The notes beneath the pieces were generated by a model. The model ran no database searches, was not told where the DNA came from, and saw nothing but the letters and a program-made list of their open reading frames with translations. Made by a program: the position numbers and the translations under genes. From Butyrivibrio sp. (GTDB taxonomy: Bacteria; Bacillota; Clostridia; Lachnospirales; Lachnospiraceae), in NCBI RefSeq assembly GCF_017433805.1, contig NZ_JAFRGN010000066.1, forward strand, positions 1-60,216: a stretch of 60,216 nt of DNA, written 5' to 3'. This document shows, one piece after another, positions 21,273 to 26,226 of this stretch; within the stretch, counting starts at the first letter, position 1; each line of letters begins with the position of its first letter.

Positions 21273-22352
21273 TTAATTCTGTCTTTTTTTCCGTCTTACT
21301 CTATTGATGTGTCTCTCGAAATCTCCGCTCTTGATCAGCTCTGCTATTACATACTGGTCGAATATTGGCACTGTGCAGGAATAGAATCCAAGCTTGTCAT
21401 TAAACTCTGAGACCATACTCTCAGGCAGGATCATGTATCCAATTCGCATGGACGGAGCTATTGTTCTGGAAAAAGAGTTAAGGTATATCACCGCTGCATC
21501 CTGAGCCATGGAAAAAAGTGGTTCTTCTGCCTTTCTTGATACAGTAAGCTCTGAATCGTAGTTATCTTCTATGAGAACACCATCTCTTTGCTTGGCCCAT
21601 CTGATGTACTCGAGCTTCTTGGAAATGCTAGCAGTAACTCCGCTTGGATAGCTGTTAAAAGGAGTTACGTGCAGAATTCTGGCCTTGGTCCTTGCAAGAT
21701 CATCTGATGCAAGCCCCTCTTCTGTCATTGTGAGCATGTCACAGGTAACACCAAGAGCCTCGTACACATCCCTTATCTTCTTATAAGATGGTTTTTCAAG
21801 AGCGTATACCCTGTCTGTTCCTAGTAGCTGAACTATAAGGCCATAGAGATACTCTGCTCCAGAGCCTATTATTACCTGATCAGACTTAACTGAAATGCCT
21901 CTACTCCTTGCAAGGTACTGACACAGCTCATTTCTAAGCTCAAGACAACCGTGATTTGGGGATTTTATAAGTATCCTTTCCCCATAATCAAGCATTACTC
22001 TTCTCATGGTCTTAGTGAGGACAGAAAAAGGAAAATCGCTGGTATTGGGAATTTCCGGCGTCTTCTCTGTAATCTGCACCTTCGCTGGCTCTTTTCCCCC
22101 GAGGAAGTCCTCATCTCTATAGGTCACAACTACGCCGCTTCGTGGCCGGCTCTCAACATAGCCCTCATCGTTTAAAAGAGTAAGAGCATGCTCCACGGTA
22201 ATGACACTTATCCCTGTTTCCGCTGCTATCACTCGCTTGGAAGGGAGTTTGGTGTCATATTCGTATACTCCTGCCACTATATCTTTTACCAAAAGTCTGT
22301 ATAGCTGAATATATGCTGGTTCTGAAGCATTTTTGTCGATGTTATAGTTCAT
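21273..22352 (-). CDS. MocR/PdxR-type regulator, truncated and lacking the PLP lysine
   Basis: 359 residues. The N-terminal GntR helix-turn-helix (YDTKLPSKRVIAAETGISVITVEHALTLL, residues about 37-65) is intact and followed by an aminotransferase-like fold I domain (VIIGSGAEYLYGLIVQLLG, VLIEDNYDSELTVS). The cofactor site reads NSFSRTIAPSMRIGY: Arg296 replaces the lysine that forms the Schiff base with PLP, and the protein ends about 100 residues earlier than normal family members (usually 450-490). The coding frame beyond the stop does not resume homology. It may still bind DNA and a ligand, but should not bind PLP covalently; alternatively it is an early pseudogene. Confidence 0.8.
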   Translation of the reverse strand: MNYNIDKNASEPAYIQLYRLLVKDIVAGVYEYDTKLPSKRVIAAETGISVITVEHALTLLNDEGYVESRPRSGVVVTYRDEDFLGGKEPAKVQITEKTPEIPNTSDFPFSVLTKTMRRVMLDYGERILIKSPNHGCLELRNELCQYLARSRGISVKSDQVIIGSGAEYLYGLIVQLLGTDRVYALEKPSYKKIRDVYEALGVTCDMLTMTEEGLASDDLARTKARILHVTPFNSYPSGVTASISKKLEYIRWAKQRDGVLIEDNYDSELTVSRKAEEPLFSMAQDAAVIYLNSFSRTIAPSMRIGYMILPESMVSEFNDKLGFYSCTVPIFDQYVIAELIKSGDFERHINRVRRKKRQN

Positions 22353-22450: not shown

Positions 22451-22479
22451 TTGCCACCAGATTGCGTCAATGGTAGAAT
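22451..22479 (+). promoter_or_regulatory. Promoter of the YGPP lipoprotein-radical SAM operon
   Basis: TTGCCA (22451-22456) and TAGAAT (22474-22479), 17 bp apart. The predicted start near 22486 excludes an upstream start codon for the lipoprotein and supports ATG 22518. Confidence 0.6.
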
Positions 22480-22517
22480 ATTCAGTAACATCTAACTCGA
22501 AAGGGAAGGAGTCACGT

Positions 22518-22967
22518 ATGAAAAAGCTTAAAAAACATGTTGTCATAGGCACAACAGCTGGTCTTGCAGGATTATTCCTGACAGCCTGCGGAGCCTATGG
22601 ACCTCCTATAACAGAATCTACATCTAATACAGAAGGAGCAAGTATGGAAATCGGTGCCAATCAGGAAACGACTCAGAATGCACAGGATACACCTGCTGCA
22701 GAGAGCTCCACTGCTAGCGCAGAAGCTAATACTACAGAGCCAGTTACAGATAGCGCTTCCACTGAGAGTGCTGCCGCTTCCACTGAAAGCACTAATTCTG
22801 ATGCTGCTACAGGCAAGATTTCTTTTAGCAAGGTTGGGGAAGTTAAGGGCGAAGATGCCAAAAATGCCATGAATTCATCATCTCTTCTGAGTGATGATGT
22901 CGAATACATCGATCCTAAGACAATTCCAGTTCCTGCGGTTTACGGACCTCCTGTAGAATCCAAGTAA
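22518..22967 (+). CDS. Lipoprotein with duplicated YGPP motif, putative radical SAM substrate
   Basis: 149 residues, start supported by GGGAAGGAG upstream and by the promoter position. The signal peptide ends in lipobox LTAC (Cys24), and the lipid-modified Cys is followed at once by GAYGPPITE. A long Ser/Thr/Ala/Glu-rich linker (about 31-110) leads to a short ordered segment (KISFSKVGEVKGEDAKN), and the protein finishes in AVYGPPVESK, repeating YGPP at residues 142-145. It lies 13 bases ahead of a radical SAM/SPASM gene. I recall bioinformatically defined families in which lipoproteins with a YGxP motif beside the lipobox are paired with such enzymes. Enzymatic modification of one or both YGPP motifs is an inference. 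Confidence 0.75.
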   Translation: MKKLKKHVVIGTTAGLAGLFLTACGAYGPPITESTSNTEGASMEIGANQETTQNAQDTPAAESSTASAEANTTEPVTDSASTESAAASTESTNSDAATGKISFSKVGEVKGEDAKNAMNSSSLLSDDVEYIDPKTIPVPAVYGPPVESK

Positions 22968-22980
22968 TAGAGGTTATACC

Positions 22981-24054
22981 ATGAACACCAGGAAACTCAA
23001 GAAATCTCATTTAGATATCCAATACAAAGTACATAAAGAGCTCTTTGAACAGCCGATCTTGCATCAGCTGTTCTTTGAGTTTACGCTTCGTTGCAACGAA
23101 CACTGCTGGCACTGCGGCTCCAGATGCGGCGATATACAGGCTACTGAGCTGACAGTAGCTGACTGGAAAGGTATCCTTGATCAGGTCAAGGAAGACTTTG
23201 CAAATCACCTTCCTCAGATCAACGTAACCGGCGGCGAACCACTGTTATACCCAGGTTTTGAAGAGGTTATGAGTTACGCTCACGAGCTTGGCTTTAAATG
23301 GGGAATGACTTCAAATGCCATTTTAATAACACCTGATATCGCACAAATGCTGTCCAAATGCGGAATGAACACCATTTCAGTCAGCATAGATGGTCTCGAA
23401 CAGACACACGATTCTCTAAGGGGACTCCCAGGAGGCTACAGGCGAGCAATGGATGGAATACAGAATCTCATTGATATTGGCACCTGCGATGCCATAATGG
23501 TCACAACTGTAGTCAACCACGAGACAATCCATGAGCTCGATGACCTTTATGAGATAATGAAGGATCTCGATATTGATTATTGGCGAATCCTTGGCGTTGA
23601 GCCTATTGGAAGAGCGCTTGAATACCCTGATAGAGCCATGACTATGGAAGATCAGCGTACTCTCTTTGATTTCATCCGCAGCAAAAGAGCTGACAATATG
23701 CCTGTGAGCTACGGCTGCAACCATTATCTTGGCCTCGATTATGAGCGCGAAGTCAGAGACTGGTATTTTACCTGTATGGCTGGAACTACTATCGCAAGTA
23801 TCACCTGCATAGGAGATGTGACAGGCTGTCTTGATATCGAGCGAACTCCAAGCGTTATTCAGGGTAATATCCACGATCGCAGATTTTCAGATATCTGGAG
23901 AAATGAATTCAAGATATTCAGACGTGATAAAGCTGAAGACAACGAGACCTGCAAGAACTGCCAGGATCGCAATTACTGTATGGGCGGAGCTTGTCACACC
24001 TGGGATTTTGACAACAATGTACAGAGAGTATGCTTGTCTGAATTGTGGAGATGA
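22981..24054 (+). CDS. Radical SAM/SPASM protein, putative lipoprotein-maturation enzyme
   Basis: 357 residues. The radical SAM cluster motif CNEHCWHC (Cys38, Cys42, Cys45) is followed by the SAM-binding GGEPLLYPGFEEV. The C-terminal SPASM-type region has many cysteines (FTCMAGTT, CIGDVTGCLD, ETCKNCQDRNYCMGGAC, VC), enough for auxiliary Fe-S clusters. Enzymes of this architecture typically modify peptides or proteins (thioether, C-C or C-O links, decarboxylation, epimerisation). It follows the YGPP lipoprotein by 13 bases in one operon with no other gene, which makes that lipoprotein the likely substrate. Because radical SAM enzymes act in the cytoplasm, modification would precede secretion. 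Confidence 0.88.
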   Translation: MNTRKLKKSHLDIQYKVHKELFEQPILHQLFFEFTLRCNEHCWHCGSRCGDIQATELTVADWKGILDQVKEDFANHLPQINVTGGEPLLYPGFEEVMSYAHELGFKWGMTSNAILITPDIAQMLSKCGMNTISVSIDGLEQTHDSLRGLPGGYRRAMDGIQNLIDIGTCDAIMVTTVVNHETIHELDDLYEIMKDLDIDYWRILGVEPIGRALEYPDRAMTMEDQRTLFDFIRSKRADNMPVSYGCNHYLGLDYEREVRDWYFTCMAGTTIASITCIGDVTGCLDIERTPSVIQGNIHDRRFSDIWRNEFKIFRRDKAEDNETCKNCQDRNYCMGGACHTWDFDNNVQRVCLSELWR

Positions 24055-24091: not shown

Positions 24092-24136
24092 TAGGGATAG
24101 TTATATAACACATATATGTTATATAACTATCCCTTT
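24092..24136. terminator. Bidirectional terminator between convergent genes
   Basis: AGGGATAGTTATATAAC pairs exactly with GTTATATAACTATCCCT. CCCTTTTC follows on the plus strand. It serves the radical SAM gene and the convergent DUF3048 gene. Confidence 0.85.
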
Positions 24137-24151
24137 TCAATTCATTGATTA

Positions 24152-25138
24152 TTAGTTGAATACCAGCTTATCCCATGTATCAGAAGGAACAAGTCCGATA
24201 TAGGTCTTTCCTCTGTTTACTGCAATCTCATTACCAGCTACATCAAAGTAATGAGTGATTGCTGTCTCGCTACCCTTGGACCAGGTAATAGGAACTGCCT
24301 TACCATTTGTCAGGTAGTAGCCATTTCCTGAACCTACTACGTTATAGGTAAGATATCCATTCTTATCAAGCTGCTTAAATGATGTATTCTGCAGAATAAC
24401 GTTCTTAAATGTAAGTGGCTGTGCGTCCTCAGCATCAAAGTGTTGGCTGCCATATTCGTAATAATCGTATGTTCTGCTTCCTGGATTAAACAATAACTGG
24501 CTCTTATTGTGCACGAAAATATTACTGAGATCTACAATATTGACCGCTGCTTCACTTGCAAGGTCTGTATCAGCTGCTGTAAACAGGAAATGTGAGCCTC
24601 TCTCAGGTGCCATAGTATATGCTGTTGAGATTCCACTTTTAGCAAATCTGTTAACCAGCTCCTGTCCGAATACGTACTCAGTAAATTCTGTAGGCTTACC
24701 ATTCTTGATTCTGGAGAAACCACCGCTGATATGTGTAGCATAAGGCTGCTTCAGATAGCTCTTTATATAGAATGGACCACCGTCGTGGATCAGAACTGCG
24801 TTGTACTCTCCTGTCAGCATTACGTTTGTAGTACGTGTACTACGAATACTTCCTGTCTGCTGGAGATTTGCCCAGTCCTTGTACAGACACATAAGTCTTG
24901 TAACGCGGCCATTTGCTGTACTGTTCATCATCTCGTAGACAATATCTGCTTCTGCTGTACCGTAGTGAGCTAGAGCTTTCTTTTCATTATCTACCATAAT
25001 AGCTACAGGTCTCTGTGCCACAAGCTCGTCGCTTATCTCAAGTCCTGTCAGCTCATTTGTTCCTGCATAAACCGTTGTTGACAGCATAATAACGCTGAGA
25101 GCGCTGGTAATTACCCCTAAAACTTTTTTCAACTTCAT
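24152..25138 (-). CDS. DUF3048 (YerB-like) secreted protein
   Basis: 328 residues with a cleavable signal peptide (SAG-type site after TTVYA) and no lipobox cysteine. Conserved DUF3048 segments are visible: QRPVAIMVDNEKKA, AEADIVYEMM, TRLMCLYKDW, GSIRSTRTTNVML and VLIHDGGPFYIKSYL. Proteins of this family are exported and of unknown function in Gram-positive bacteria. It is monocistronic, upstream region shared with the divergent Nudix gene. The B. subtilis relative YerB is a lipoprotein, unlike this one. Confidence 0.85.
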   Translation of the reverse strand: MKLKKVLGVITSALSVIMLSTTVYAGTNELTGLEISDELVAQRPVAIMVDNEKKALAHYGTAEADIVYEMMNSTANGRVTRLMCLYKDWANLQQTGSIRSTRTTNVMLTGEYNAVLIHDGGPFYIKSYLKQPYATHISGGFSRIKNGKPTEFTEYVFGQELVNRFAKSGISTAYTMAPERGSHFLFTAADTDLASEAAVNIVDLSNIFVHNKSQLLFNPGSRTYDYYEYGSQHFDAEDAQPLTFKNVILQNTSFKQLDKNGYLTYNVVGSGNGYYLTNGKAVPITWSKGSETAITHYFDVAGNEIAVNRGKTYIGLVPSDTWDKLVFN

Positions 25139-25858: not shown

Positions 25859-25905
25859 GCTCAATGTCGTTTATAAAGTTTTTATAAAAAATGGAGAAAC
25901 AAAAC

Positions 25906-26226
25906 ATGAAGAACTATAAAATGTTTATTGCAGTAGTTATGGGTTGCTTTATGCTTACAGGATGCGGAAACGCAGCTGTTGAGTCTGCTATTACATCTGA
26001 TACAGAGAGAGATATCGTAGTTGAGTTCACTGAGGGTACAGAGCTTACAGCTGATCTTATTGCTGAAATCGAGGCAATGACTTCAAGCAGCTACAAGACA
26101 CATCCTTATGAGAGATGCTACAGATTCGAGGCTAACGAGGCTTCTTACGAGGCTATTACAGATGTTTGTAAGGCACTTATCGAGCTTCCTTATGTTAGCG
26201 ACGCTCACACAGAGTATCACAAATAA
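25906..26226 (+). CDS. Small lipoprotein (106 aa)
   Basis: 106 residues from the second ATG, chosen because GGAGA lies upstream of it and the lipoprotein signal then fits (MKNYKMFIAVVMGCFMLTGC, lipobox Cys20). The mature part of about 85 residues has an alternating pattern (DIVVEFTEGTEL, helix, ERCYRFEANEASYEAITDVC, helix, YVSDAHTEYHK) that resembles small ferredoxin-like domains such as protease propeptides, but this is only a fold guess. Two cysteines remain in the mature part. It has its own promoter and terminator. Confidence 0.75.
   Translation: MKNYKMFIAVVMGCFMLTGCGNAAVESAITSDTERDIVVEFTEGTELTADLIAEIEAMTSSSYKTHPYERCYRFEANEASYEAITDVCKALIELPYVSDAHTEYHK

Follow-up and report, generated by a model that had tools for sequence, protein, structure and literature searches.

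Cross-linking maturases of the triceptide/cyclophane type belong to the SPASM enzymes and have short aromatic motifs as their targets. In the passages of the literature drawn on here, the splicease PlpX, working with PlpY, excises tyramine from Xaa-Tyr-Gly (PMC11002830); its natural sites are MYG and LYG, and the engineered splice tags include GYGLPI (PMC10533398). Spliceotides are described in the same passages as protease inhibitors (PMC11117315, PMC10373908), and the targets of the mycofactocin enzyme MftC are a C-terminal Tyr and the Val next to it (PMC9062424). We have analysed a 60,216-nt stretch of Butyrivibrio sp. DNA (contig NZ_JAFRGN010000066.1; the whole stretch is called the window below) in which the gene for a lipoprotein with two YGPP motifs (22518..22967, + strand, 149 aa) is followed by a gene for a radical S-adenosylmethionine (SAM)/SPASM enzyme (22981..24054, + strand, 357 aa). 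We conclude that the enzyme very probably modifies its partner at the Tyr-Gly motif. Related enzymes suggest a specific chemistry, that of spliceases at Xaa-Tyr-Gly, which was absent from an earlier interpretation of the same DNA made from its letters alone (the sequence-only reading).

The lipoprotein has a signal peptide at residues 1–23 and a lipobox, LTA followed by the lipidated Cys24 (22587–22589), both judged by eye, and these place it among bacterial lipoproteins. Cys24 is followed directly by GAYGPP, so that the first predicted modification site, Ala26-Tyr27-Gly28-Pro29-Pro30, lies at 22593..22607. The protein ends in PAVYGPPVESK, and the second predicted site, Val141-Tyr142-Gly143-Pro144-Pro145, lies at 22938..22952. 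The sequence is of low complexity and has no NCBIfam or Pfam family over cut-off; when its residues were shuffled 200,000 times, at least one YGPP appeared in 165 shuffles and two in none. The enzyme gene opens 13 nt past the lipoprotein stop codon on the same strand. Its product matches Pfam Radical_SAM (3.7e-22) and SPASM (4.3e-10) and has the make-up of a radical SAM/SPASM peptide maturase: the cluster motif C38xxxC42xxC45 (23092..23115) followed by Gly46-Ser47, GGEP at residues 84–87, and a Cys-rich SPASM end (23773..24033) in which Cys265, 283, 324, 327, 333 and 351 are the putative auxiliary Fe-S ligands. The AlphaFold model of the enzyme (pLDDT 88.9) finds its nearest folds among peptide maturases. 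The open reading frames (ORFs), spacing, lipobox, motifs and domains named in the sequence-only reading were all confirmed.

Relatives of the enzyme were found in 20 of 79 genomes of the genus (E ≤ 1e-60), 19 of 397 of the family (E ≤ 1e-40) and 2 of 398 of the phylum (E ≤ 1e-50), the window being included in each count. A scan of GTDB contigs matched at least 593 stretches, of which at least 585 encode an enzyme relative. Among the matches listed, many come from rumen or faeces, the taxa are Lachnospiraceae, Ruminococcus and other Oscillospiraceae, Erysipelotrichaceae, Coriobacteriaceae, Eggerthellaceae and others, and the nearest named relative is Butyrivibrio sp. MC2021 (70%). Gene pairing was examined in 99 loci, 19 from the family genomes and the best 80 of the at least 585 GTDB contig relatives, which are not mutually independent and include some near copies. 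An ORF with the pattern YG.P ends no more than 450 nt upstream of the enzyme match in 86 of the 99 and lies just downstream in 2; 11 have neither. After removal of four loci with short flanks, the partner is upstream in 84/95, downstream in 2/95 and in neither place in 9/95. Of 57 control windows placed about 3 kb upstream, 4 contain such an ORF. The two genes thus co-occur in other genomes, as the sequence-only reading had expected. Among the 11 loci lacking a pattern match, L077 and L081 are cut short, and inspection by eye recovered YGPAP twice in L013, CGYGPS in L021, YGPKP downstream in L014, YAPP downstream in L016, a YGPP lipoprotein 1.3 kb downstream in L095, and GPP without Tyr in L018; the remaining three (L010, L036 and L087) are considered with the alternatives below. 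A viral origin of the pair was rejected (viral contigs gave one pattern-matching stretch, none confirmed), as were a phage origin (15 records, all below 60% identity, the top of five rows listed at 26%) and a plasmid origin (288 records, all below 60%; the best three rows are at 32%, two of them annotated as TIGR04133 family and one without annotation).

The motif is retained while the rest of the lipoprotein changes. In the two nearest orthologous loci (L124 and L125) the enzyme is 84–85% identical to that of the window, whereas the lipoprotein is only 47–53% identical; of the eight motif residues, 8/8 and 7/8 are kept in L124 and L125, compared with 41/117 and 52/117 of the residues outside the motif and signal peptide. 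In the same-genus set (15 loci examined of 21 places found, enzyme identity 54–100%), Tyr-Gly follows the lipidated Cys in 15/15 and recurs near the C-terminus in 12/15, with L126, L136 and L137 having the N-terminal motif only. The relative L130 carries AYGSG and MYGSP, in which Tyr-Gly is retained and Pro is not. The 94 non-redundant partner ORFs contain 271 exact YGPP copies. One-letter variants of YGPP fall on Tyr in 2 cases, on Gly in 1, on the first Pro in 7 and on the second Pro in 12, and the residue ahead of Tyr (n=271) is Val in 216, Leu in 34, Ile in 7, Ala in 6, Met in 2 and others in 6. These ORFs were picked by YG.P, so every protein has at least one copy with Tyr, Gly and second Pro by construction and the constancy figures lean towards the motif; a few spurious frames, such as a hydrolase in L015 and the first frame of L045, are also included. 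By these comparisons, Tyr-Gly, not YGPP, is the most constant core of the motif, which upholds the dipeptide but not the full tetrapeptide proposed earlier as the conserved modification site. When the genome was searched for additional lipoprotein substrates with the pattern NTNTAYGGNCCNCC, which covers Tyr-Gly with Pro-Pro only and is blind to site 1 (Ala ahead of Tyr), six matches were obtained, and on these the presence of such substrates was rejected. One of the six is site 2, two are YGPPG stretches with the look of ATPase P-loops, and the other three lie in frames that do not convince.

The carriers of the motif are not all lipoproteins, to which the sequence-only reading had confined it. 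By rough regular expressions, 60 of the 94 partner ORFs are lipoproteins and 9 are dockerin proteins of Ruminococcus and its kin; Pfam Dockerin_1 was over cut-off in both of the two tried, L075 barely so (23.7 against 22.9). A DUF805 membrane protein is the carrier in L098 (Pfam, the one tried) and L011 (by eye), and zinc-ribbon proteins are the carriers in L015 (Pfam, the one tried) and in L014 and L019 (by eye). Tat-like signals were seen by eye on the carriers of L039 and L048. YG[PA][PA] copies range from 0 to 7 per ORF: one ORF has none, 19 have one and 74 have 2–7. In the DUF805 carriers (L098, 3243–3944, and L011), the membrane domain is followed by a C-terminal tail of VYGPPEDF-type repeats. 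In the Ruminococcus loci L034 (3148–3984), L075 (3154–3984) and others, YGPP repeats flank the dockerin domain, so that cellulosomes may incorporate the modified tags; at some loci two or three such genes follow one another.

Because the pairing is wide and the motif is fixed while the lipoprotein drifts, the motif is very probably the site at which the enzyme acts. On this evidence we hold with high confidence that the enzyme modifies its partner at Tyr-Gly, and the two-gene modification system put forward in the sequence-only reading is accordingly very likely.

The relationships of the enzyme were examined in two trees, the first of 42 rows and the second of 41, in which NirJ and a second TIGR04053 sequence were added and PqqE and the genome's other radical SAM enzyme were dropped. 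In both, the window-type enzymes fall into a single clade (97/89 and 95/85) that joins the three TIGR04133-type rows at 100/99 and 100/98, consistent with common ancestry apart from the other radical SAM/SPASM families, few of which are in the tree. Rooting the first tree on the remaining families makes the window-type and TIGR04133 enzymes sister to a group (95/91) that consists of TIGR04103, TIGR03913 and their Lachnospiraceae kin. In the second tree the whole group is split from mftC, NirJ, TIGR04053 and TIGR04347 at 100/97. NirJ2 (TIGR04055), sought in the class as a source of outgroup sequences, was found in 0/148 genomes. Gly46, directly after the CxxxCxxC motif, is present in 34/34 rows of this whole group and 0/7 outgroup rows, and Gly251 in 32/34 and 0/7; His143 (34/34) and Trp201 (33/34) each also occur in 2/7 outgroup rows. 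The best NCBIfam model for the enzyme is TIGR04133, at 253.8 bits under a cut-off of 425, and the relatives in L007, L034 and L015 score 270.6–286.3 bits.

TIGR04103 (nif11-class maturase 3) is presumably the InterPro family of PlpX, IPR026482. Since the partners of the window-type enzymes have the same Xaa-Tyr-Gly core, in several copies, and the enzymes themselves belong to a sister clade, splicing is predicted at Ala26 and Val141. By this analogy we somewhat favour a stand-alone, splicease-like excision of tyramine that would leave alpha-keto-beta-amino residues at these two positions. The enzyme would act on its partner in the cytosol, ahead of Sec export and lipidation, and would recognise each Xaa-Tyr-Gly-(Pro), that is, Ala26-Tyr27-Gly28 beside Cys24 and Val141-Tyr142-Gly143 near the C-terminus. 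Tyramine would be cut from the backbone at each site, leaving a protein that is tethered to the membrane and carries an electrophilic alpha-ketoamide at both ends. There it might inhibit proteases or act as covalent bait of another kind.

A number of observations weigh against splicing. The enzyme scores 116.8 bits against TIGR04103, whose cut-off is 725, and this is exceeded by the models for AhbD (heme b synthase, 134), mycofactocin MftC (124.2) and NirJ2 (123.5), while the cross-linking model WgkB (103.8) comes near it. The main gap in both trees is that they hold no AhbD, NirJ2 or cross-linking enzymes. No N-terminal recognition domain is seen in the AlphaFold model, the lipoprotein has no match to a Nif11 or nitrile-hydratase-type (NHLP) leader in NCBIfam or Pfam, and PlpX works with PlpY whereas a PlpY-like third gene is not conserved near window-type loci. 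Zinc-ribbon carriers with no visible signal (L014, L015, L019) fit poorly with an external protease inhibitor, and in a related Lachnospiraceae group with VYAGP or VYNGP tags the Gly does not directly follow the Tyr. When tags were inserted into FtsZ, PlpX spliced 2 of 16 insertions, both with GYGLPI, and none of the LYGLPI forms, as described in a part of PMC10533398.

These same scores bear on two other chemistries. A C-C or ether bond joining the Tyr ring to a residue close by, as in triceptides or cyclophanes (two residues on), would change each motif by -2 Da per site. We regard it as rather unlikely, since WgkB and DynA (63.5 bits) both score under TIGR04103, WgkB by little, and the enzyme stands beside the TIGR04103/TIGR03913 clade, in a tree without cross-linking enzymes; moreover, we know of no cyclophane site Tyr-Gly-Pro. 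The third cross-linking model, PapB, scored 70.5 bits, and all three are under cut-off. Also unlikely is a different modification of one residue (Tyr, Gly or Pro) without a break in the backbone, such as beta-hydroxylation, dehydrogenation, epimerisation or an MftC-like oxidation. AhbD, MftC and NirJ2 catalyse reactions other than splicing, and these models, like TIGR04133, all score over TIGR04103, which speaks for such a change. The Val-Tyr pair on which MftC acts (in the part of PMC9062424 covered here) is also the commonest in the partners of the window-type enzymes. On the other hand, MftC decarboxylates a C-terminal Tyr and the Tyr here is internal, and the Gly after Tyr is as constant as the Tyr, which suits an Xaa-Tyr-Gly site better than a change to Tyr only.

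The remaining alternatives concern what is modified. The presence of the motif at both ends of the window protein had raised in the sequence-only reading the possibility that the two ends of the lipoprotein are cross-linked, which would close it into a loop, and Tyr-Gly at both ends in 12 of the 15 same-genus relatives speaks for it. This now appears extremely improbable and was rejected: three of the 15 same-genus relatives have an N-terminal site alone, 19 of the 94 partner ORFs have one copy, and most of the others have 2–7 copies, odd numbers included. It is also very unlikely that the lipoprotein is not a substrate at all, with the enzyme modifying something else and the YGPP protein acting as a carrier or sensor. 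Such an arrangement would agree with L010, L036 and L087, where no YG partner was seen by eye at the locus, an observation that counts against splicing of a partner as well. One short motif is, however, found on structurally unrelated carriers (dockerin, DUF805, zinc-ribbon and lipoprotein), and this would be difficult to account for if the enzyme did not encounter the motif.

If tyramine excision is the reaction, the locus may encode one member of a large and so far unrecognised class of surface proteins whose backbones are naturally spliced in anaerobes of gut and rumen, a proposal that we make tentatively and hold at somewhat under even odds. In such a class, stand-alone, PlpY-free spliceases would act on 1–7 Val-Tyr-Gly-Pro-Pro tags carried by lipoproteins and by cellulosomal dockerin, membrane and zinc-ribbon proteins, and the resulting ketoamides would serve at the surface or in cellulosomes as protease traps or covalent anchors. 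Backbone splicing would then no longer be confined to small peptides that have dedicated leaders but would include ordinary exported proteins, and the surfaces and dockerin-bearing proteins of rumen and gut bacteria would display reactive ketoamides, a matter of relevance to fibre digestion and to defence against proteases. Protein labelling would also gain a useful tool in a splicease that has a short tag and needs no PlpY. For the orphan pair TIGR04133/TIGR04134, a concrete and cheap test is now at hand. The open-licence literature searched yielded no description of the lipoprotein/radical SAM pair and no occurrence of the names TIGR04133 or TIGR04134. Part of this family may already be included in Scott et al. 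2022 (Chem 8:2659).

Both genes flanking the pair lie on the minus strand, and the pair therefore stands alone, with no other genes in the unit, as had been proposed. Upstream and divergent is a MocR/PdxR-type regulator (21273–22352, over the NF052282 cut-off), and directly downstream is a DUF3048 gene (24152–25138, Pfam). In a comparison of 18 loci, most with about 1.5 kb of flank, the MocR and DUF3048 neighbours recur only in L124 and L125, so that the pair behaves as a self-contained cassette. A probable ribosome-binding site, AAGGAG, precedes the lipoprotein gene (22506..22511, + strand). The terminator and promoter assigned to the pair in the sequence-only reading fared differently. A terminator at 24093..24134 (+ strand), a hairpin of 18 pairs followed by a short T run, is plausible, although a single site of this kind is no more than shuffled sequence yields (mean 1.1). 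The case for a sigma-70 promoter at 22451..22479 (+ strand; TTGCCA-17-TAGAAT with TG ahead of the second hexamer) is weak, promoter-like sites numbering 6 compared with 4.4 (sd 2.4) in shuffles, that is, not above expectation. Farther downstream is a small second lipoprotein of 111 aa (25891–26226, + strand) with an LTGC lipobox, no YGPP and no family match over cut-off.

Compared with known systems, the pair resembles TIGR04133/TIGR04134, with a radical SAM/SPASM enzyme of about 350 aa adjoining a lipoprotein gene and a sister position in the tree. The YGxP lipoprotein/radical SAM pair mentioned in the sequence-only reading does exist under these names, but the window pair falls outside both models. 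Pairs of this type occur on plasmids of Treponema, Parabacteroides and Phocaeicola, and the Treponema and Parabacteroides lipoproteins pass TIGR04134. The three TIGR04134-type lipoproteins read also have YGxP near the lipidated Cys (CYGMP, CEYGSP, CEYGTP). In the Parabacteroides one a carboxypeptidase-regulatory-like domain exceeds the Pfam cut-off, and the Treponema one has a match below it, whereas the window lipoprotein is of low complexity and has its second motif at the C-terminus. It has no TIGR04134 match; a TIGR04134 scan of 21 genomes gave 0/21, with the control set likewise giving no match anywhere. As the window pair is under the TIGR04133 and TIGR04103 cut-offs and lacks a TIGR04134 match, we do not file it as a member of these families.

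MftC is likewise a SPASM enzyme acting on a Val-Tyr pair (in the part of PMC9062424 covered here), and the three MftA read end in GVY; it differs in the C-terminal position of the Tyr, in having MftB alongside and in lying on a separate branch. For the triceptide/cyclophane and other cross-linking maturases (DynA, WgkB), compared by model scores alone, the motif is different. The TIGR03913 GDL-motif maturases share a clade with TIGR04103. Close to the N-terminus, 2 of 5 DUF1843 partners carry PYG and two carry YA, the fifth having neither; none is a lipoprotein. The five DUF1843 proteins read (L107, L108) show QPYGAGI, RPYGPAM, LYAAGI, MYAASI and, in one, neither form; DUF1843 proteins beside TIGR03913-clade maturases thus possibly also carry Xaa-Tyr-Gly/Ala sites. 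A second Lachnospiraceae group (L138–L148; 10/200 genomes) is TIGR04103-like but below cut-off, and some of its loci have neighbours with VYAGPExF, VYNGPE, VYAPPEFF, KYGYP or YGFP tags, some of them with zinc ribbons; possibly a tag system runs in parallel here, with Tyr followed by a different residue.

PlpX and TIGR04103 differ from the window system in acting on leader-bearing precursors with Nif11 or NHLP rather than on a lipoprotein. In a search of the flanks, no small gene besides the YG partner recurs in more than 4 of the 99 loci. On a Nostoc plasmid, an enzyme that exceeds the TIGR04103 cut-off (853 bits) lies between a Nif11-leader precursor and a 71-aa protein, and the precursor ends in ALYGLPPELF. 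The likeness lies in a radical SAM/SPASM enzyme, an Xaa-Tyr-Gly site with hydrophobic Xaa, which the window lipoprotein also has, and multiple sites per substrate, together with Gly46, His143, Trp201, Gly251 and the six SPASM Cys common to TIGR04103 and the window enzyme.
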